From Adineta ricciae (taxonomy: Eukaryota > Rotifera > Eurotatoria > Adinetida > Adinetidae): a stretch of 64,000 bases of DNA. This document shows, piece after piece, positions 17,263-49,807 of this stretch. The notes below the pieces were generated by a model. The model was given only the letters and a program-made list of their open reading frames with translations. It had not been told where the DNA came from and did no database searches. How positions within the stretch are numbered: the first letter of the stretch is position 1; each line of letters starts with the position of its first letter. The DNA lies in contig CAJNOJ010000066.1 of assembly GCA_905250025.1 (NCBI GenBank), forward strand, positions 372,001 through 436,000, read 5' to 3'. Both the position numbers and the translations under genes were made by a program.

Positions 17263-20200
17263 TCAATGATTCGTCTCTTTTGCCACCCAACCTTCCGGAT
17301 GTTTTCGAATGAATAATTTACGTATTTCATCATAGCCAAAAATCATCAATGCAAATGGAATAGGACATAAAAGCCACAAAGGTCTAGAAAAATCGGCAAT
17401 TCACATTGATGAAGCAAACAATTTTGCAAAATCTTACTGTAATCGTTCGAGGAAAATAGCGCGATTAAGTCCTGGAATGTAAATCAATAAAACAGCTACC
17501 ACGGGCATTAATATTAAACATAGATTGACAAACATATTACTAAACAATCAAGACGATGAAAAGAAGTGTCGCTTAAAAAAGAATAGCCTACGTTCGTAAA
17601 CCTTGTTGAAATAATGATAAACGACGCGTTTTACACACGAGTAAATTAGCCATTTGTACAATGACGATAGCTGCTAAAAATGCTGCGTAGCCCATATATT
17701 CGAGAATTTTTCTTTGTCGATATGTCTAAACAACAAAACAACGAGACTCGTATACGAACTTAACGTCTTTTCACGTACCCATTCTTGACCGTAAGAATCT
17801 TCTAGATCATTGACAGCAGCGGCATCCCATGCTTTTCGAATACCGACTAAACGCGATGGCCAAAAGCCATTTTCGGCCATGACAACAACCCATGTGAAAA
17901 ATCCAGCTGTAATTTGAATTAAACCAATTTGTCCCCAACAGAGCGATAGAAGTCTGAGAACAGTCGATGAATGATGAGAACCAATAGTTCAAATCTAGGC
18001 TTACCTTCGGTTCACTAATCGATCTCGAAATTTATCAATTGGTCCCTTTGTCATTATATCTGATTCTGGTCTTTCATAAGCTAAAGAGATCGTCGGTAAT
18101 AACTGTGTAATTAAATCCACAAGCAATAAAGTAATTGGACCAAGTGTTAGAGGTATTTGAAATATAATAAACATTAAAAATGGTAAAAGTTGCGTGGCGT
18201 TCACAACAAGACAATAAGCTAAGCATTTCTTGATATTTTCCCAGAGATAGCGACCTTCTTCAATAGCACCGACTAGTGTATTCAAATCGTTATCAAGTAA
18301 AACAAGATCGGTTTCTTGACGTGAGGCTTCACTACTACGATTTAGCATTGCCACACTCACATCAGCTTTTCGGATCGCACCACGATCATCCGATGATTGG
18401 CAAAAACATGTCACCACGGCTTTGCCTAATTGAGCGCATTCGACTATTTTTTGTTTTTGTCGAAGTGTTGTACGAGCAAAAGCAACTTCAGGAGCATTGA
18501 TGATGGTATCGGCCAAGTCGAGTTGCGATATATTATGTAAATCACGGCCGTGAATAACAACGGCTGTTGCTTGTCTGTGAAACAGAAATTCATTTTCGAT
18601 CTGTCTCTTCCGTATCATTGTTCAGCTTACCTTGGCCCAACACGATCAACTGGAACACCAAGTCGAATAGCAACATCTTCGACTGTTTCTGATTCAGGCG
18701 AAAAGATTGTCAAACGTCTAGCCAGTGCACATGTTGTGACAGGATGATCACCAGATACCAAGATAACCTATAACAAAAAAACATTTTCATTAATCTTATC
18801 GAATGCGCAAACCTCAACTTTACTTTCACTCCAGCCAGTCGGCATTTTTCAATTGCTGTAACAGCATTCTCCTGAATCGGATCACTAAATGACATAAGGC
18901 CAAGAAAGCGCCAATTTTCTTGTGGACCATCATCGCGATGATATTGTCGTTCAGCGAAACCTTGAATTAATTACTGAATTAATATGAAAACATATGAAAA
19001 TAGTTTACCAAGTACAGTATCGCCCAATGAACCCATCTGGATGAGACTTTCGTTGAACATTCGCTCCAGGGCGAGATTACCATCAGTTGGTTCTTCCTCG
19101 TCATCGATGATAACCGACGAACATCGATGAAAAACACGTTCCGGCGCACCCATCATACAATCAAGAAACATTCCTTCCATGTTAGGTTCGTTATTCACAT
19201 GAAACGATTCCTAAAAAGAGAAAATAAACTTTCAGTTATGAAAAGACTCTTTTGTCAAACAACAAACAATTCGTTTGTTTTCCGGTGTAAAATGATGAAC
19301 ATCTCGTCGAGGATACAGATGACGAATTGCTGCAATGTCCAATTCAGCATATTCCGCATATTTTATTATTGCTATTTCACGTGCATCACCATCCCTACAA
19401 CGAAATAATTCTCCTTAGAACACAGAGAAAAAGAAGAGAATCATCGTTTAACAAACCATTCTCCTAGTGGTATCTGTCGACCCGATTGATGCTGATCGGT
19501 GAAATACTCCGCCCGACTGCATAGAACTGCTGTGCGCATTAATTGTTGCCATCCTGGCATTTGCATACACTCTTGTATAACTATAAGCAGAAAAAAAAAA
19601 CAATTTTGACTCAAACTTCTTCTTCCTCCTTCTTCTATTCACCATTGGGATCTTCCGATGGAGCACCCGAAATAATACGCTCTTGATTTGCTGGTATCCA
19701 TATTTGGCTGGCGGACATTTGATTCGTCGTTAAAACTGATTTGTCAACGAATAAGATTGTTGTACAAGCCAAATCGTACAAAGCATCGATAACTTTGACA
19801 AGACAATTTCGAGTAGCCATATGTTGTGCTGTACGTGTCAAACATAACTACAATCGAAAAGAAAATTCAATTTCGCCTTGACAGGTTACTCTTCGATTGA
19901 TTACATGAATTATAGCTGGTAGAATTTCAGGTATGCAGGCGATGTACACTGAAATCATGATTTGAATTGCGTACAGCCAATAATAACCAGTTGAATAGAG
20001 AATGATGAAAAAGATCACTCCCAACACTAGACCAGCAACTGTCAGGAATAGAAACATGGAACGAATAGTTCGTGCATAGATAGTTCTTTTCGGATCAAAA
20101 CCTAAATAATCAATGAATATTTCATCAGGATGTTGTAACTTTAAATTTCATCCTACTTTCAGTAATATTCGACATTTTACCCAAGAGGGTATGTTCAGCT

Positions 20201-23200
20201 GTTTTGACAACAATACCGATTGCTGATCCATGAGTTATCTGAAAGAAAGATATTCAATAATAGAATTCTCTGTCGAAGAATCATTTACACTTGTTCCACT
20301 CAGAAGTAAGTTGTTGGTTTCCAATGGATTTGTATTTGTATAGTCCGATGATCGAGGTACCGGATCCGAGTCTTTTGTAATAATCGAATTATCCACAAGA
20401 AGAGCAGATGTATGAATGATTCGAATGTCAGCAGCAACACGATCTCCACCACGGACATGTATGATATCACCACGGACGAGATCTTCCGAATTGATACGTT
20501 GCCATTCGCCTTCACGTTTAACATCAACTTGCTAAAACAAATAAAAATAGAAGTAAATATGAAAAAGAATCCCAAAACAACAACAAAAAAATAACGAAAA
20601 AAAAGAAGAAAAACATATTCATGGATTTATTTCGCGTATATTCTCTCTGAAATTTCTATTGTCTTTTCTCTGAAAGTCATTTATTAATATGTGTAAAACT
20701 AAACAAAACGAGACGATGATGACGACTCTAATAAGTGCTCAACATTTTCTGTTTAATCCATGTTAAATATGGCACCGTACGAACGTAGACACCAGGAAAT
20801 CCACGTTTAGAACAACCATAACCATACGAGGTTATACCACCTATAGACCATTCACCATTTTCCTGATGCATCAATGGTCCCCCACTATCACCAGCACTAA
20901 AACCAAAATTCACCAATGCATCGATAAGCAAACAAAACTCATCGTAAGCAGATTTCATACCATGTATCTTTGGACCAATCCAAAGCGGCAGCACACAATT
21001 GTTTTCCCGTATCGTAATGAACATCCATGTACACACGACAATTCGTTGCTGGTAGAATGTTTACATTGGCTTGTCTTAGTACATTGGAATGAACACGTGA
21101 CGTCTCCGCCACTGTACCCCAACCAGCTACAGTTACTTGTGTGCCCGGTGCCACATTAGCCGATGGCAAACATATCGGTGATTTATGTTCAGTCGTGACA
21201 ACAGGTCGATCAAGTCGAATGATAGCAATATCGTTTTCGAATGTACTAGCAATGAATCGTTCATGAACAAAGATGCGCCGTGCTGCATAAAGTTCCTCTG
21301 GACGAGTTGAACGGATGTCATGAATACCGATGCGTAGGATAAAAAAGGACTCTAATGTCGGATTGGTCGATGTAAATGGAACGTAACGATCATCAATCTT
21401 CTGCTCAAGACAATGAGCAGCAGTGAGAACGTGTGATGGTTCAATCAATGTTCCACCACAGATATGTGTGCGATTTTGCCATAAGCCCGATGGACCACGA
21501 TATCTCACACCGATTGATACGAGCCAAGGCCACCCATTCGGACGTGCCTCAACGCCGTTGATAATTCTTGAAAGTATCGAATGAAACAGATTAGTAAAGT
21601 AGCCTGTACGAGTATTTGAATGAAATGATGTCGAACGTGCTGCTCTACCACATGTAGTTTGAACAAATCGTGAATGGTTGTCTACGGACGTTGTTGTATG
21701 TGTAGCATTTCCAATGAACATATCACGTATTTGATTTTTCACTACGTGTGATGGTGTCGGTTGAACTGATGCGGGCGGTGGAGGTGGAGGTGGAGGTGGA
21801 GGCGCATGTACTGATGATGTTAGTGTTGTTAGAGTAGGGCAACAATATCGCACACTGTAATCATCGCACATCTTGCGTTGATATTTCGGATCATAACTAT
21901 TTAAACAGAAAACATCGTTTGAACGTAATAAAATCATATCGAGTGTTTGATTCATATCAACACCAGCTTGATTTACCGCTGACACACCACGAGGTTCAGC
22001 ACAAACAATTGCTGGATGTCGACTTCGAATAGCAGCATGCAGTTCATATTCACCTTTGATGGATGGAGTATGAAAATTAAACCACGGTGTCCACGACCAC
22101 GAGTCTTTCGGCTCACATGGCATTTCTTGTCCAGTAATTGCAGTTAAATAGATCATTAAATAAGCGAATACCATAGGTAACATCGTTATCATCGTCATTA
22201 TGTAACAATTTGCTCGAACTCTTTTTTTTTATTCAATAACGATTAGAAGAGTAATAAACATCAAGTCGAGACTTATTGGATTAAAAAAAACTGACGCGCG
22301 TACGTATGAAATATACAATAATAATATGTCAGAATATCGAAAAATGTCATCATTGTGTTGTGTATGTGTCTGTCGATTTTTGAAGGCTCATCTTCATCAT
22401 TCACAATCTTATATTATGATGTGATGTGATGTTTAAGAGAAGGACGAACATGAATACACACCTTTCGTTTTTCTTCTTCATCTTCTCTTAAACACACTTT
22501 CGTCCTCTGACGATAATCGGAGGGCTTCCGTTTCGTTACATGTCTACTGATCTTTTTCTGTGTCTTATTTATGTACACGAAATAACTCAAATGAGATTTT
22601 TCTTCTCTCGCGTCATCTTACTTGTTTGATTTGATATCGTAAATATTGTAATTTGTTGGCACTGATATGATTAACAGCAAATGTGAATACACTTGGTAAG
22701 AGTATGAAGATAATCAAAACGATGAGCATGTAAAGCTAAAACATAGAGCACGAAACGAACTTTATCGAAAGATAAGATTTTTTTTCTCCCATTACATTTT
22801 CATAAGTTATTTCTTGTCGGGTGTTCAATTGTATAGCAAAAGCAACAAAACATAGAATAGCCAATAGAGATAAGATGGCAACGAAAAAAATGTAGGGTTG
22901 GAGCCAAAAACGTTCGCATGATTTGGAAATACTGACATGTGGTGGTTCGATATGATTTCGACCTTCGTCAATTAAACGTTGTTTAGCTTGAATTTTTGTT
23001 AAGCCCTAAGAGAAATATCTATGAATCGATTGAAATTTCCAATGTAATAATGCGCTACCGTTCTCAAATCTGTGTCAAATCGATGTACAAGTTCTTCAAT
23101 GGAAATTTGATGTTCATCCTAAATAGAAAGAATTTCGAAAATGAATTTTTTTCCGACGAACGATGAATAAACTCACATAAACTAAATCGGCGTTAATATC

Positions 23201-23426
23201 ATTTAAATCAATTTCATTACCAACACGTCTTCGTTTGGTACGATGAGATGGTCGAGAGTGATCGCGACTAACTGCCGATCGATAGGACACAATTCGTGTC
23301 GAATCATTTCGATCGTCAATACCTCCGTTTGCATAACCACCGTTCTATAAAGAATGTCAAAGAAAAAAAAATACGATGATGAACTTTTCAAGGTTGTCCT
23401 TCTGATAAGCAACGATCTCTTACCAT
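17263..23426 (-). CDS. Na,K-ATPase alpha-like P-type ATPase, predicted catalytically dead
   Basis: About nineteen exons. The ATG at 23426 is followed immediately by a GT donor and joins NGGYANGG...; the stop is at 17263. It aligns along its whole length with the Na,K/H,K-ATPase alpha subunit: N-terminal [10 protein letters not shown] and [13 protein letters not shown]1-M2 (22600-22900), actuator domain, M3-M4, P- and N-domains, M5-M10, and the terminal [17 protein letters not shown]...KETNH. Catalytic motifs are degraded: TGES reads TKDS (20367-20378); DKTGT reads DKSVL with one residue missing just after (19731-19745); TGDGVND reads FCQSSDD (about 18383-18403); KGAPE reads MGAPE; DPPR reads DPIQ; PEGLL reads PEILP. 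Ion-site acids in M5 and M6 equivalent to E779 and D808 are Gln. The frame is intact throughout, so this looks like a maintained pseudoenzyme. Intron 5 (about 20536-22614) contains a complete protease gene. Confidence 0.9.
20728..22198 (-). CDS. secreted trypsin-like serine protease with N-terminal WxxW domain, nested in ATPase intron
   Basis: Two exons (22198-20961 and 20896-20728) give 468 residues. A signal peptide (residues 1-23) is followed by a cysteine-rich module, about residues 28-120. It has W34, W36 and W39 (SWTPWFNF) and ends DDYSVRYCC, resembling the mucin-type WxxW domain. A linker with a ten-proline run follows, then a trypsin domain. The activation cleavage site is R211/IING; the His is in TAAHC (H262), the Asp in ENDIAIIRL, and the Ser in GDSGGPL, split from upstream sequence by the 64-nt intron. 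Asp at the S1 position (DTCAGDSGGP) predicts cleavage after Lys/Arg. It ends [11 protein letters not shown] minus-strand AATAAA (20626-20631) sits about 100 nt after the stop and before the next ATPase exon, so it appears to be a free-standing gene. Substrate unknown. Confidence 0.9.
22199..22613 (-). other. upstream region of the nested protease, within ATPase intron
   Basis: About 415 nt between the protease ATG and the donor (GTAAGATG) of the upstream ATPase exon ending IKQ. It must contain the protease promoter, unless that gene is made from a processed ATPase transcript. It has an A-rich/T-rich stretch near 22222-22300 but no clear TATA box that I can assign. Confidence 0.4.
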
Positions 23427-23994: not shown

Positions 23995-26167
23995 CTAGGT
24001 GACAACACTTGGTAAAAAATCATAGGTAGTGATCACATTTCTCGTAGTCAATTCTGTCGGCTTAATATTTCGTCGTGATCGTTTCGTATTATAAAATATA
24101 TAAATTATAATTAGAAGAATAGTGAGTATCAGTATGCTGACGAGCAGAAATGTATGATACCAGTGAAATGGTAAACACACTTGACGATGTGATATCATGT
24201 CCCAATATCGAAAGCGTTCTTCGAGATATTGATTTTCAATTCGGGTTTCTTTGACATGGAAGTTAATGTAAGACTTGTTTGTAGTTTCATACGAGGGCCA
24301 ATAAAGTGAAACATTATTCGGTGAATTGGGATTTCCTGGAAATAAAAAGAAATGCCAGTTTGTGAACGAAGAGACTGCTTACCTGTTTTAGCGAAATTTG
24401 TCCAATATCGAATCATCTGCAGGCTGAGTGCGATTTCATCGGATGTATAAGACAAATTCCTCGTCGTCATTCGTTGTACATCTGATTGAGGAAGGAATGG
24501 AAGACCCAAAAGAAGATCTAATTCAGCAAAGTGTCCAACCATATTTGAATTACGCTGTGATTTGTAACTGGGCGGATTTGTATAATAATACACATACGTC
24601 GATGCAACGGATTCGGAACGTAGACGTTCGTGAAGAAAACGAATTAAATCATAGTAAATCATCAAATCACTGGTAGTGAAAATAAATTATTGAGATAATA
24701 ATCGAGGAAAAGTTGCTTACCTGATCAGATCGGTATAGAGATGAGTAGTTTCGACGACATTATGTTGATCTTTTTTCATTGGAGTATAGCGTGCGCGAAT
24801 TTCATCATAGAAACAGAGATATTCAGGGTGGTTTACTTGTAAAAACTTTTTTATGTATTCGTGCTTTCGAAAATGAATGAGACTGTGCACTTGTTCTTGT
24901 TCAGTTAAAGTTCGTCGCAGCGAAGTTGTCGACAAATAAGGCGAAAAAATATGTTCTTCAGCTATGGATAACGACTCATCAGCTGTTACACCAATTAGAA
25001 CATCAATGTTCTTCAAATGCCCAGTACGAATCATATGTTCCAGATCGAAAGGTATTATATCGTCATCAACAACTGGAAATCTAATAGTTAGAAATAACAT
25101 ATTGAATTCGAATCTCATAAAACTTCGTCGTTCGATTTCTTACGGAAAGGCAGGTAGTTCTTCGAGTTCATCACGATATCTGTAACGAATTTGTTCAACT
25201 GGCATAGTTTTTAATCGATCCATATTGGTTTGAATGAACTTTCTTCTCGTATTCATATTATTTTCTTTTATGACATTATCAAAACGAATTTTCGCATGTC
25301 GATCCACTGCCCTACAGAGGAAACTCTACAAAAGATTAATAAATTTCAATTGAATTCGATTACCATTGATTCATTGGACAACCACTTTGCGCGATAACTC
25401 GAGTCAACAATCCATCAGAATGGTTCGACATCGCAAGTAGAAGAGCATTGACAGCACCACTCGAATGTCCGACATATGTTATCCGTTTGAAATCTCCATT
25501 GAATTGCTTCGCATTTAGCGATATCCATTCTAACGCCAGTAATTGATCGTATAATCCATAATTTCCTGACATCGTCGTTGAGAGAAAACCGAAGATACTC
25601 AAACGATAATTGATCATAATCACAATAACATCACCGAGAGCAGCAAATGCACTTCCATCAATCGAAGATACTGAACCAATTTGGTTCAGCATTCCATATG
25701 AGAAGACCATGATTGCTTTTGGTACTGACGAAGTCGATTTTGGCACGAAGATATTTAATGTCAAACAGTCTTCATCAAAATGATCAGCGGATCGAAATGG
25801 ACCGTATGAAGAATCATCAGACGACATTTGTAGACACGCCGGTGGCGGATTTATTGCATAGATAATCGATTGTGCATTGTATCGTCGCAGAGTCGATCGT
25901 TCAAACCGCGCTGGCTTTTCACCATATGGAATACCGAAGAATTGATAAACTGGAACATTACGAACGATGACTTGTTTACCTTGAAACAGTCCTGACGTAG
26001 TATTTAAACGCGGATCGCCTTTCACATCCCTTGAAAAGCTTCAAACGAAAAGAAGAAATTGTATGAGATGTCAAAACGAAAATGAATTACTTGATGTTGT
26101 TGATCGATCGAATCGTTTGTAAATTGACTAAAAAAATAAAGAAATAGCACACCGAGGCTTCAACCAT
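23995..26167 (-). CDS. cholinesterase/neuroligin-like single-pass membrane protein
   Basis: Start ATG at 26167 opens a signal peptide (MVEASVCYFFIFLVNLQ). A carboxylesterase/cholinesterase fold follows: FFGIPYGEKPARFE, EDCLTLNIFVPK, VIVMINYRLSIFGF, GNYGLYDQLLALEWI, then nucleophile elbow GHSSGA in place of the usual GESAG. Catalytic acid region GVTADES and histidine region VGHFAELDLLLGLP are present. The oxyanion-hole HGGG is replaced by SYGM. A C-terminal hydrophobic helix (FLLVSILILTILLIIIYIF) and a short basic tail end at 23995. Ser, Glu and His positions remain, but the altered oxyanion hole argues for weak or no esterase activity. The TM anchor and short tail resemble neuroligin/gliotactin-type cholinesterase-like adhesion proteins. 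Enzyme versus adhesion role is unresolved. Confidence 0.87.
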
Positions 26168-30356: not shown

Positions 30357-33300
30357 TCACAGAATGCTGCAAACAGTACAACTGGCAACAGAACTATTAA
30401 CATTTGGTGGAGAATGATTGTTGGTCATCGGACCAAGACGATGTTCCAAGTGAACTGAACTGCGGATCTGAAATGGTTGATTCAGAGATGTACCAACAGG
30501 TGGAACAATGTTAGATGCAGTTAAGATAGGTTCGATAGGTCGAACGGGATGATCACTACCATCAGTTTCATTGTAATCGTAATCGAAATCATCTTCGCTC
30601 ATACTTTCATTCGAACTTTCGTTTGAGTTCAATGAATCTGTATTATGACGTTGATGATTTCGTGCTTGTTTCGTATGTCGAGCTGTAGTCAATGCAGCGA
30701 GAGCAGATGATGGATGAGCAGTACCTCGTTTATCGATCGAAGATGAATGCACCAATCGACGAAACGTACTCGGCGATGATGATGTTGTATGCCGAGATAC
30801 CATAGATGCAATTTCGTTGTAACGTGCTTGCAAATCTGCTGCTCTACCGCTACCACCATGTCCACCGGCACCTAATAGATACGGATCAATAGAGAAGAGT
30901 TCGTTAAAAACTCGAGAAAAATTACCTTTCAAATCAACATAAGCTAATTGTGAAAGAATCAAACTTGCTGCTCCCATTGGTGGCCATAGTGTTGATTCGA
31001 ACATAATTGGTACGATTGGCTTCTTCAACATATCAGCGAGAACCAATTCCCGTTGACACATATTCGAAACAATATACATTGGTGTTATACAACAAATAAC
31101 CACCTAATAGCAAAGTTCACATCAAATCACTTCAATTACAATCGGAAATCTTACTTTCGCATTTCGTATTCCATGATCGATTTTCTCATAGAGCAATTCT
31201 CCTCCGCCGATTTGCCCCATATCCATCCAACATGTAAAACCGACTAATTCTAAAAAGTTCCGCAATTCTTTCACTTCGTCCTGAGCATCCCATTGATAAC
31301 TAATGAAAACTGATGGCAAAGAATATTGTGCTTCACGTTCACGTGATATGATTTCAACTAGATCGTCGCGTCCAATTTGTTTCATTGTCGCAAGTAACAT
31401 ATCAACGGCTAGTGAAGAGTTGCCGCTTCGGACAATCCAATCAGTTATTAATTGTAAACTTGGATTGCGACTCAGAGCAAACTGATCGATCACCGATTGT
31501 TGATAACCGAGTTTTTTGGCTAGAATAACCCATGTACGGTTTTCACTTGATGATTTGTTGAGATTGATGTTGATTACAGATGTCGAGAGAAGTTTCGCAG
31601 TTGAGCGTATCCAACCTGGTAAGTTTGAGTCTTCGAAGAAATGATTCATTGACTTTTGATCGTATAAAATATCGATGATTGGCACGGCTCGTGTCGTCGT
31701 TAATTTCGGAAACCAATTACGGTATTGACTTGTAGGTACACGACGAAATGAACATTCAACAATCTGAAAAGTCAGACAAAGAAAATGATGAAAACGGAAA
31801 AGAAGAGGAAAGCTTACTGGATTTGAAAGACAATGATCGAGATTCAAAAAATGTAAACAGAAATTATTTGAGCAATAAGGAATTTTATGTAAATCACATA
31901 TTTTCCCACACGGACAAACGACCATACATTGAAATGCCAGACGGCGTATCCATGTCGATTTAATTTCATTCAATAATGACTCGAGAAACTTACGAACCTA
32001 GACAAAACTCAGTAAAATGCCTGACAATCACTGAAATAGAACTTACTTTTGCTACAACCACTGGATCTGCCAATTGCGGATTGATTTCATCTTGATTTTT
32101 GTTATTACTGTTATTGCTATTGTTACTACTAGCTGCAGCTGTTGTAGTTGTTGGATTAGGAATGGCTGTGGCGATGTCTGTACGAATAATTTGCACTTTC
32201 ATTCGCGCGTATTTCATCGATGATGCAGTTAGAATAAGTAAATGATGATCGTCGAGAAGAAATTTTCCACGACGATAGTTGAGTTTCGGTGATGATGCAT
32301 GATGTGATTGTGTCCATTTGATTGTTCGGACAAGTATTTGGTGAAAAAGACTTTCTAAAAACAGCAATCTTTCGTATTCGTGAACCGGATCTTTGCATCA
32401 GAAACTTACCCGGGAAAAATCCATCGAATAAATAGTAGAAAACCACCGATTGATCGTCTTTTTCTGTCGAACTCTTCTCAGTATAAACACGACGCATACA
32501 TCCCGGTATGTAATACTGTTTACACAACGCTGCCGATGATGTACATTCACAAAGAAGATCGAATTTCTTCAGTAGTGCCAATAGGCTTTGTTTTTGTTCA
32601 ATAAATGGTTGACAAAGATTTTCAAATGTTCGTTCATCGATAATTCCGTCGTCGTTCCCATTTTCAGCATTGTCATTAAAAACAAGACGTCTCATAAGTT
32701 GTATGAGTTTCTGCGGACGGAGGATAAGTGTATTTTTCAAAAACATGTCTTGTGTATTATCGAAATAAACAATAACACCGAGATCATGATAGAAATCCAA
32801 TAGAGTTTTCAACTCGTCCGAAGAACAAATATCTTGTGTTCGAGCGATGTCACAAATCTAAAAGCATCGATGAATAACAAAGAGAATTAAGAAGACGTTT
32901 AGCCTACTTGATCCAGCGAAGCATAGAAATTCTCTTGTTGATGTTTTAATCGGTTCAAATCATTTTCAAAATGCAACCATCGAGTCGGAATTTGTTCGCC
33001 GATATAATGTTCAGCTAGAGCCGTTTCTTCGATTAATTGTCTTAATTGTTCGATCTGAAAATACAAGTGAAACTATGAACGAAATTCTTGGTTGGTAAAT
33101 AGTTACTTGTTCAACATCAGCAGCATCCGATCGAAGTGTATCGACGGTAAAATACGGTTCAATCACATGTTTCGCGTAGGGCTTCGTCGCAATCATCGCC
33201 CGAATTGTAGACATTTTATTGTCAATCTGAAAAAATGCAGAAAATGTTGTTTATCATCGAAGTCTACATACAACAAGAAAAACTAACCGTGTTATTTTTA

Positions 33301-47022: not shown

Positions 47023-49807
47023 TTAGAAGGCAAGAATACGATTATTACCGAAATCGACAACAAGTAAGAGGCCTTCGGATGTCACGCATAACCCACTTGG
47101 TCGATCCATTTGTAAAGGGCCCGAACCTTGTGTACCGAATTTTGTTTTAAAAACACCTTGAGGCGAAAAAACTTGTACACGATAGTTGCGCGAATCAGCA
47201 ACGAATATGTTTCCTTCGGCATCGATGTCTACACCTTGTGGACGAAGAAATTGTCCATTGCCTGAACCTTCACTTCCAAGAAATCGAGCATTTTGAAAAT
47301 CGGACGAAAGAAATAATAATCGATGATTATTGAAGTCCGTAACAATGATATGGCCAGCATGTGTAAAAACGACACCACGCGGCGAGTCGAACTGTTTCCA
47401 AACCGGCCCGTCAAAACCGTACTTTCGTAGATATAATCCATCCTTGGTAAATAATTGTATACGGTGATTGCGAGTATCGGAAATCAAAATTTGTGAAATT
47501 GATGATACGGCGACATCCCATGGATAATTGAATTGACCGGGTTTTGTACCTTTTTCACCAAATTTAAATATGAATTCTCCTGTCGATGCAAAAACTTGAA
47601 CACGATGATTATCTTTGTCTGTGACAATAATTCGATTCAGTTGTTTATCATAAGCAACACCAGCTGGTCGATCGAATTGTCCTGGTCGATTGCCTTGCGC
47701 ACCAAACTTTCGTAGGAATTGTCCATACTTAGTAAAGATTTGTATTCGATTATTTGATCGATCAGCAATGATAATATTCGACTGATTATCACAACAGACA
47801 CCCCATGGTCGACAGAGTTTACCGTCTTGATCACCTTCACCACCAATTTCGAATTCTATCTTCGTGCCAATTGTCAGATAGTTCCGATTTTGTTTGACTT
47901 CAATACGAAATGGATTATCCTTGATGGGAGAATTGTTCACATAAACATTCAAGATATGTATATGATCACTTTGGGCAATATAAGTCAGGAAGTATTGTCC
48001 ATTTTGTCGATCGTAGATTTCGCAGGGAACTGTTTGATTTGTACTTGTATCAATTAAACAACATTGAACGTTGTCACCACCCGTTGTACGTAATTCGCCC
48101 AAATGATTGCGTGCCTGTAGATTTAAGACTGTTAAGCGATTGCGTACGGTATTATAAAGTGAATCACCATATAGTTCACACAATGCAGGATAAGTCGATG
48201 TTATTAATTGTCCGTAGTTCATCATCGATTTGCTAATCGGTGTCGATGGGCTTTGCAATTGAACGAAATCATCTTCGAGTGGTTTGAAATTCGATAGCAT
48301 GACTTGTTTCATTTGAATAACTTCATTCCAAAGACGATTTCGTGTACGTACCAAATCGGTATCGTTGCCGTTCTTTAAGCACTCGTTACAATCGAGAACG
48401 GTTATATGCAACTGTTTGATAACTTGATTGATTTCATTGATCTGTCGTTGTAATGTTTGCGTTTTAATCGTTTGGATTCTATCGACATTTTTCAAAAGAA
48501 AATCTTGTCGTTGGGTGAGAGTATCGAGAAAGTGTTTGATCAGCGTACGAATCTCGTTTTCAATGGTTGAACTCTTCAACGAATGGTTTTCTATGGTTCG
48601 TGTCGATTGTTTTAACGATTCATCTAAATGATACAGTAATGTTTGCAGTTCGATCAGGAATTGTTTCGTTAGTTGTCGAGCATTATCTATTGTATCTTGA
48701 AATGCTGACAAACTGTGCTGTTGAACATGATGAATTTGACATTCATGACAATATGCGTGTGAACATATCTCACAAAAATAAGTTGCTTTGTATGACGGGT
48801 GCTCATGACAAAAAATGGTCGACGGTGATGAGAGAGACGAATTCAGGATAACTGGATTGTCATTAGTCGATGTATTTAATGAAAGTTGAGAGAAAAACGA
48901 ACTGAATAACGAGGGAAAATCATTGGTGGTGGCTGATGTGCGATTCAATGGGAAGTCGAAAGATGTTGGTTGTGGCAAATGACCTAGAACTGACAGAAAT
49001 GGGAACTAAGTTTTACAAACGAATTGGCCGACCTTTTTTCGATGGTGATGATGATGACGGTGGCTGTCCGATCATTGATCGAGTATGATGATTATTTGCG
49101 ATCTGTGAGGATGAAAGTAATTGTTGCTGATGATCTTTAAATCCAAGTATTTTCCGATGGGCTAAAGCGCATTTTTCACACAGAGTTGAATCACAATCCA
49201 GACAAAAAGTGTACGGTAAATTATTGGTAAAACAACACAGTGTTGCTGGCTGTTGTAACATTAACGTACGAGAAAAATCTGTATTACTCTGTGTACTACT
49301 AGCCGGACTATCTCGATCGTTAGTTGAATTATTTCCGTTAAGGAAGAAACGCATGAAATCATTGGTGATATTCGTTGTCGATTCGAAGTCATTTGGGAAA
49401 GCTGTTGGTGTTAACGGCGGAAATGTATGATTCAAATCGGTTGATAAATGAAGAAAGGGATTGTGAGAGGAATTACCGGATAGAAATGGATCGAATGCGC
49501 TTAAGCGACGGTTCGATGATGAAACAGATGAAGATGTTGAAGATGCTGATGATGAAGGTAATGAAGAAAAATGGGATGGGAATATCGATTGAGTTTGCTG
49601 TGAATGATTAAGCAATAGTTGTGACGATGACGACGACGGAAAAAGTGGAAATTGATGTTGTTGATCAATAAATTCTGTCATACAACTAGAACAGAATCTC
49701 GATAGAGGATGATTCGCTGATGAGCCTGAATTCATTGGCATTTCTTTAAGGCATGATGAACATATACCACCGGTATTCGCGTTATTCATATTGCTTGTTT
49801 CATTCAT
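47023..49807 (-). CDS. TRIM71: TRIM71/LIN-41-like B-box, filamin, NHL-repeat protein
   Basis: Two exons meet at 49013-48996 in a continuous frame. Exon 1 (start 49807) has an N-terminal pair of CSSC motifs 20 residues apart, Ser-rich linkers and B-box 1 (CCFTNNLPYTFCLDCDSTLC). Exon 2 has B-box 2 (CHEHPSYKATYFCEIC), a coiled coil, a filamin/ABP280 repeat (LRTTGGDNVQCCLID ... NPFRIEV) and six NHL repeats ending FGNNRILAF. Several NHL stretches (GQFNYPWDVAV, SDTRNHRIQLF, FDSPRGV, VVDFGNNRIL) match TRIM71/LIN-41, an RNA-binding repressor in developmental timing. A full RING is missing: there is no His-containing zinc motif at the N terminus, only the two CxxC pairs. Like Drosophila Brat, it probably lacks ubiquitin-ligase activity and acts through its NHL domain on mRNAs. 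Confidence 0.92.

Follow-up and report, generated by a model that had tools for sequence, protein, structure and literature searches.

A Conserved and Almost Certainly Non-Pumping Relative of the Na,K-ATPase Alpha Subunit in the Bdelloid Rotifer Adineta ricciae

Introduction

Why would an animal keep a full-length sodium pump alpha subunit whose catalytic motifs are broken? The question is raised by a gene at positions 17263..23426, on the minus strand, of a 64,000-nucleotide stretch of the Adineta ricciae genome (contig CAJNOJ010000066.1, positions 372,001 to 436,000; hereafter the window). The gene, referred to here as the dead alpha, encodes a relative of the Na,K-ATPase alpha subunit. We consider it probable that its product is a pseudoenzyme, derived from an old DNA-level duplicate of an alpha gene, that lost phosphoenzyme formation and normal Na+/K+ binding, came under purifying selection in bdelloids, and acts in a role based on beta-subunit docking. 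An earlier note on this DNA had proposed a maintained, non-pumping alpha subunit, and this proposal is supported by losses shared among species, an intact gene, and constraint at the protein level; the structural, sensor, and dominant-negative functions that it offered are candidates.

Gene Structure and Family Identity

The dead alpha gene comprises 19 exons, all on the minus strand, a model supported by splicing, phases, guided realignment, Pfam, and a PDB match. Exons 1-7 lie at 23426-23424, 23344-23177, 23118-23059, 23005-22796, 22735-22622, 20531-20289, and 20238-20157; exons 8-14 at 20101-19905, 19847-19643, 19580-19457, 19394-19268, 19210-19009, 18960-18824, and 18767-18631; and exons 15-19 at 18574-18005, 17953-17779, 17725-17592, 17539-17438, and 17383-17263. 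The coding sequence of 3111 nucleotides (nt) runs from an ATG at 23426 to a stop codon at 17265..17263 and encodes 1036 amino acids (aa), with GT-AG borders in 18/18 introns, phases that all join, and neither an internal stop nor a frameshift. A spliced aligner guided by protein P0001 recovered exons 2-19 with identical boundaries. P0001 is an uninterrupted open reading frame (ORF) of 1036 aa on a 3359-nt contig and shares 87.9% identity with the dead alpha over 1036 residues. With 18 introns in the genomic gene and none in the P0001 contig, the latter is transcript-like, and the simplest explanation for it would be an assembled transcript of a related Adineta. A partial A. ricciae protein, P0002, shows 100% identity to the product of exons 6-19 (82% of the query).

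Four cation-ATPase domains (PF00690, PF00122, PF13246, and PF00689) were identified in the predicted protein, with no HAD hydrolase family among the Pfam matches listed. Among the best 120 rows of the protein search, PF00702 is missing in only eight (P0001-P0008). In the PDB, the protein is closest to Na,K-ATPase alpha subunits, matched over the full length (4xe5_A, alpha-1, E 7e-234), and this full-length homology, together with a ten-helix architecture, places the protein in the P2C group. The AlphaFold model of P0001 (mean pLDDT 77.7, pTM 0.72) has Na,K-ATPase 8jbk_A as its best match (TMq 0.83). The full-length relationship and the frame kept over 19 exons, both described in the earlier note, are thereby borne out.

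Catalytic and Ion-Binding Residues

Pump residues such as E779 are given in what we take to be mammalian alpha-1 numbering, and the Na+/K+ site carboxylates are presumed to be the equivalents of E327, E779, D804, D808, D926, and E954. The motifs were located by alignment, all on the minus strand. The dephosphorylation motif of the A domain, TGES, reads TKDS (residues 237-240; 20367..20378), and DKTGTL reads DKSVL (residues 394-398; 19731..19745), with the nucleophile Asp 394 retained and one codon deleted. KGAPE, in the nucleotide site of the N domain, is MGAPE (residues 531-535; 19139..19153), DPPR is DPIQ (residues 605-608; 18872..18883), and TGDGVND is FCQSSDD (residues 727-733; 18385..18405), in which the Mg-ligand Asp is lost and the second Asp is retained. 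Helix M5 carries VNATQ for SNIPE (residues 794-798; 18190..18204), with Gln at the E779 equivalent and Thr for the proline, and in M6 the D808 equivalent is Gln 827 (18103..18105), the D804 equivalent (residue 823) being retained. In the extracellular loop between M7 and M8, the beta-docking motif SYGQEW (residues 913-918; 17779..17796) is fully conserved.

Common losses were found in orthologs from A. steineri, Rotaria sordida, Rotaria sp. Silwood1, R. socialis, and Didymodactylos carnosus, as well as in P0001. The resulting seven-row dead clade leaves out P0002 (identical to the window over the shared part), P0007 (a second Silwood1 model), P0009 (a chimeric model), and P0013 (exons 1-5 only), and for M1-M2 letters are available from the window and P0001 alone. 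In 7/7 rows, the G and E of TGES are K and D, the final residue being S, T, or A; the T-G-T of DKTGT is S, deleted, and V or I, with DKS reading DRS in Rotaria sp. Silwood1; and T-G-D-G-V-N of TGDGVND is F-C-Q/L-S-S/A-D, the Mg-ligand Asp being Gln but Leu in A. steineri. The second proline of DPPR is I in all seven rows and its arginine is Q in six (DPIR in R. socialis). Likewise, K501->M, R544->T, D926->N, and replacement of the M9 glutamate (E954 equivalent) by M occur in every row, and D808 is always altered, to Q or, in D. carnosus, to Glu. The D. carnosus gene model lacks the M5 stretch around E779, hence E779->Q and the change of the preceding proline to T were scored in six rows (6/6).

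Other positions were retained throughout the dead clade (7/7): the nucleophile Asp, the last Asp of TGDGVND, GDHP of TGDHP (whose T is Ser in 6/7), the Lys of TSPxQK (K691 equivalent), E327, D804, Q923, and the SYGQEW loop. N776 is present in the 6/6 rows with letters there, and the N-domain equivalents of E446, F475, and K480 are kept in the dead alpha. Alignment therefore confirms the changes listed in the earlier note (TKDS, DKS-V with its deletion, FCQSSDD, MGAPE, DPIQ, and Gln at E779 and D808) and finds them common to the other species, although some sites carry different substitutes in different species. Additional losses are R544->T, D926->N, the E954 equivalent, and the M5 proline. 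Its statement that every catalytic signature is altered goes too far, given that the nucleophile Asp, GDHP, the second TGDGVND Asp, and the TSPxQK Lys are kept, and its ion-site loss holds for E779 and D808, with E327 and D804 untouched. Since DKTGT, TGES, and TGDGVND are not intact, the dead alpha is not classed as a pump; among the Na+/K+ carboxylates, E779, D808, D926, and E954 are replaced. Clear enzyme-family homology is combined here with the loss of essential catalytic residues, and that loss is common to orthologs while the gene is intact, as in a pseudoenzyme.

Regions of Retained Constraint

Columns invariant in 21 canonical alphas (480 in total) were taken as reference sites; the divergent controls or frameshift carrier L034, L036, L037, and P0010 were kept out of this set. 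The dead clade retains 229/480 of these sites, distributed as 15/32 in the catalytic motifs, 62/87 in M7-M10, and 152/361 in the remainder. Retention in the motifs is at background level (motifs versus remainder, p 0.71), whereas M7-M10 exceeds the remainder with an odds ratio (OR) of 3.4 (p 1.2e-6). The three divergent alphas with intact motifs behaved differently, as all motif residues (32/32) were retained in each and no M7-M10 excess was observed: L036 keeps 73/87 sites in M7-M10 and 304/361 in the remainder (OR 0.98), L037 keeps 57/87 and 304/361 (OR 0.36), and Diorhabda P0010 keeps 75/87 and 307/361 (OR 1.10).

Within M7-M10 of the dead clade, the L7/8 loop is complete (13/13), followed by the M8-M9 loop (7/7), M10 (6/7), M7 (10/16), M9 (4/7), and M8 (5/11). 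The L7/8 extracellular loop, containing the SYGQ region, is presumably the docking site of the beta subunit, and its retention stands out against 216/467 sites elsewhere (p 5.5e-5). The earlier note described conserved membrane helices and C terminus; retention is selective in the C-terminal half of the membrane part and in the loop for beta docking.

Orthologs and Rate of Change

Distances from the A. ricciae dead alpha over exons 6-19 are 79/849 (0.093) for A. steineri, 95/849 (0.112) for R. sordida, 99/849 (0.117) each for P0001 and Silwood1, 109/849 (0.128) for R. socialis, and 164/829 (0.198) for D. carnosus. In the same columns, the working alpha L030 differs at 56/855 (0.065) from Silwood1, 55/855 (0.064) from R. 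magnacalcarata, and 101/838 (0.121) from D. carnosus. Judged by these protein distances, the current rate of the dead alpha is 1.6-1.8x that of the working alpha. Its distance to every canonical alpha compared is 0.55-0.57, and a canonical bdelloid alpha and that of Brachionus differ by 0.18.

A trypsin-like gene nested in intron 5 (described below) provided an internal yardstick, as it has its local mutation rate in common with the host exons. Identities to A. ricciae for ATPase exons 6-19, the whole protease, and the protease catalytic domain are 90.7, 85.3, and 92.5% in A. steineri; 88.8, 79.4, and 87.9% in R. sordida; 88.3, 78.4, and 85.8% in Silwood1; 87.2, 78.3, and 85.7% in R. socialis; and 80.2, 62.4, and 70.2% in D. 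carnosus, the whole-protease figures being slightly blurred by an aligner break in the proline-rich linker of the window model. The dead ATPase is more conserved than the whole protease in 5/5 species and than its catalytic domain in 4/5, with A. steineri as the exception. These protein comparisons suggest that the dead alpha is under purifying selection in bdelloids, and its history would be one of duplication, then large change, then constraint.

Origin of the Duplicate and Other Alpha Subunits

Separate alpha genes, which the earlier note had named as support, are present in the same genome at seven loci identified by tblastn and splicing: the canonical alphas L027 and L028 (contig C21), L029 (C117), and L030 (C25), and the divergent alphas L034 (C172, carrying one frameshift), L036 (C355), and L037 (C104). 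Each locus fits the five catalytic-motif patterns. L034 and L036 form a divergent pair with intact motifs, and the frameshift of L034 falls in the M5-M6 region, with none in L036. A further Na,K-ATPase-like family (L009, L011, L012, L013, L014, and L031) shows ~30-36% identity to the Brachionus alpha, and DKTGT is intact in all six translations. Beta-subunit domains gave 21 exon-level matches on 10 contigs.

Eleven of the 18 dead-alpha introns coincide in column and phase with those of canonical L027, L029, and L030, nine with L036, and none exactly with L037. The intron positions in common with canonical alphas indicate duplication of an intron-bearing animal alpha gene; a retrocopy origin is ruled out by them, and horizontal transfer by the same introns together with the animal-type homology. 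The dead alpha thus resembles the Na,K-ATPase alpha (P2C) in its full-length homology, fold, shared introns, and complete beta-docking loop, and differs from it in being ~41% identical to the canonical alpha of its own genome and in its replaced catalytic and ion-site residues. In a tree of 35 rows (LG+C20), the dead rows group together (100/100), with a stem measuring 3.17 changes/column and end branches of 0.037-0.29. Neither of two placements of this clade, beside the canonical alphas of bdelloids (p 0.172) or beside L037 (p 0.134), was rejected in approximately unbiased (AU) tests.

No second dead copy was detected, as no other locus exceeded the canonical-alpha level in similarity to the dead protein among 43 loci (two pairs overlap; 95 places listed) and the window; many genes in this assembly sit on paired contigs. 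Among the best 120 rows of the protein search, no dead ortholog from outside the bdelloids was found, and Brachionus (P0175) and Seison (P0217) contributed only motif-intact alphas. A pattern check of 316 proteins included 197 of Na,K type (P0010, P0121-P0316), seven of which are without DKTGT and/or TGES (five pieces <760 aa and two long models), and none of the 197 showed loss of TGDGxND. Two metagenome proteins, P0055 and P0049, are P-type ATPase relatives failing the DKTGT, TGES, TGDG.ND, KGAPE, and DPPR patterns and are possibly other odd or dead P-type ATPases.

Nested Protease and Neighboring Genes

Intron 5 of the dead alpha gene (20532..22621, minus strand), placed by splicing and implied by the arrangement of other bdelloid models, hosts a same-strand gene for a Mucin2_WxxW and trypsin-like protease at 20728..22198, supported by an open frame, spliced alignment, and Pfam. 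Its exons lie at ~22198-20961 and 20896-20728, with an open frame at 22228-20939, and PF13330 and PF00089 are listed for P0003-P0008. The spliced alignment has an extra break in the proline-rich linker, an artefact of the aligner since the ORF is open there. This nested gene, and the database mis-annotation resulting from it, go beyond the earlier note.

Database models from A. ricciae (partial), A. steineri, Rotaria, and Didymodactylos fuse the protease to ATPase exons 6-19, and the D. carnosus model P0013 fuses an upstream esterase-like gene to ATPase exons 1-5. As judged from these fused models, an arrangement in which the esterase-like gene is followed by ATPase exons 1-5, then by the protease, and then by ATPase exons 6-19 appears to have been preserved from Adineta through to Didymodactylos. 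Gene predictors that disallow nested genes would yield such products, and the protease-ATPase fusions look like prediction artefacts caused by nesting in intron 5.

The upstream neighbor in the window (~26040..24000, minus strand) is cholinesterase/neuroligin-like, with a C-terminal membrane-spanning stretch recognized by eye, and its Didymodactylos counterpart in P0013 has a neuroligin as best PDB match; the nearness of this gene is no evidence of a role shared with the dead alpha. Two other open frames on the minus strand appear by eye to be TIR-domain-like (32857..30357) and B-box/NHL-repeat-like (49005..47023).

Proposed Function and Alternative Explanations

From its sequence, the dead alpha is almost certainly non-pumping. 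Phosphoenzyme formation would fail with no proper Mg site and a codon deleted beside the nucleophile, phosphoenzyme hydrolysis would fail with TKDS, and normal Na+/K+ binding would fail with E779, D808, D926, and the M9 glutamate replaced. Because the membrane half bearing the beta docking was selectively retained, the protein would be expected to pair with a beta subunit and to act by binding. A wider and more tentative proposal is that bdelloids split the Na,K-ATPase, in that working alphas pump and an ancient, non-catalytic, beta-docking alpha does a pump-independent job at a junction or scaffold.

Several observations weigh against the pseudoenzyme reading or limit it. The L7/8 loop is likewise retained in divergent working alphas (12, 13, and 13 of 13 sites in L036, L037, and P0010, against high backgrounds), and D926 and part of the M8-M9 region, including more than half of the M8 sites, are altered in the dead clade. 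Former motif positions are invariant within the dead clade at 24/31, compared with 569/818 other positions (p 0.43); with invariance similar in both, these positions show no sign of either free drift or special guarding. The evidence bearing on expression is the single transcript-like contig of P0001, whose transcript status is itself deduced. AlphaFold modelling gives no indication for or against a frozen conformational state, as the dead model and that of a canonical Rotaria alpha used as control (P0235; matched 39-row alignment, mean pLDDT 81.7) both fit E1 structures best, and no locked state can be read from a model that is no more E1-like than its control. Lastly, given the active-site residues retained, the protein may still bind nucleotide to some extent and, with lower likelihood, still become phosphorylated.

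The main rival is a dominant-negative regulator, in which the dead alpha would compete for beta, or enter mixed oligomers, and so leave the cell with fewer or less active pumps, for instance on drying, a link to desiccation that is a guess from bdelloid biology. It fits the same data as a structural role, drawing on the complete beta-docking loop, the working alphas of the same genome, and several beta genes, and dead paralogs that control an active partner do exist, as in the prozyme of TbAdoMetDC (PMC5201418). There is no obvious reason why a mere sink for beta subunits should require the A, P, and N domains, yet 569/818 non-motif positions in exons 6-19 are invariant in the dead clade; we regard this regulator as rather unlikely and rank a structural or junctional role slightly ahead of it. 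That the protein is still a transporter with altered chemistry, either a pump that is slow or coupled in another way or else a passive leak, appears quite improbable. The retained nucleophile Asp, TSPxQK Lys, GDHP, second TGDGVND Asp, E327, D804, N776, and Q923 would suit such a protein, but it would have to work with a codon deleted by the nucleophile, Gln or Leu for the Mg-ligand Asp, TKDS, TKDT, or TKDA for TGES, R544 and K501 lost, and four ion-site carboxylates replaced, and its motifs are retained at background level, unlike those of divergent alphas with intact motifs.

Two further explanations concern the gene itself. Database annotation of P0002-P0008, which comprise the A. ricciae fragment and models from five further named species, would make the protein a true trypsin-ATPase fusion. 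Such a fusion would truncate the protease domain at its C terminus, whereas in the window this domain continues in frame to its own stop, and it would drop ATPase exons 1-5, which P0001, the one example of the unfused form, joins to exon 6 in a single ORF and which in D. carnosus are instead attached to the esterase-like gene; we find this reading quite improbable as well. A decaying pseudogene or an assembly artefact is the least credible explanation and is already contradicted. It could draw on the lack of a second copy among the own-genome loci examined, in an assembly with many genes on paired contigs, but the frame is open over 19 exons and throughout P0001, the same losses recur in independently sequenced species, and the gene changes at a lower rate than the whole protease that it hosts in intron 5.

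Comparison with Known Systems and Significance

Several known systems bear comparison with the pseudoenzyme reading. Pump-independent roles of the Na,K-ATPase are described at septate junctions (PMC12125057), where Drosophila catalytic mutants leave junctions intact (Paul et al. 2007, as cited in PMC12125057). Catalysis is thus not needed for that task, as would hold for the dead alpha, although the wild-type Drosophila alpha also pumps and the rotifer copy is a separate, naturally dead gene. Caenorhabditis elegans CATP-1, suggested in the earlier note as a precedent, is likewise a divergent alpha relative with debated pump-independent functions, but it proves a weak parallel: it is treated as a pump, keeps its catalytic Asp (D409) in D-K-S/T-G-T, shows a strong D409E phenotype, and has one phenotype for which loss of pump activity matters (PMC11631496). 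ATP13A5 is a P-type ATPase without detected autophosphorylation; it belongs to family P5B, however, has typical P-type motifs, and its negative result may be technical (PMC5837089). The trypanosome prozyme also stands as a dead copy beside an active paralog, yet it is a soluble decarboxylase, and binding of the dead alpha to a working alpha is only hypothetical (PMC5201418). In the main text of PMC10654040, the word "inactive" is absent. No paper describing a dead yet conserved alpha subunit of the Na,K-ATPase was found in the open-licence PMC literature, a body that most subscription papers fall outside.

The present analysis also corrects database entries that label the orthologs as Peptidase S1 domain-containing proteins. 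Whether the sodium pump truly has functions independent of pumping has so far been argued mainly from point mutants, and a dead alpha that retains its beta-docking loop and is conserved across Adineta, Rotaria, and Didymodactylos would let nature's own experiment bear on this. Its partners and location would reveal which tasks an alpha subunit has besides pumping and, if the proposed reading is true, bdelloids would present a natural separation of two functions that are fused in other animals.

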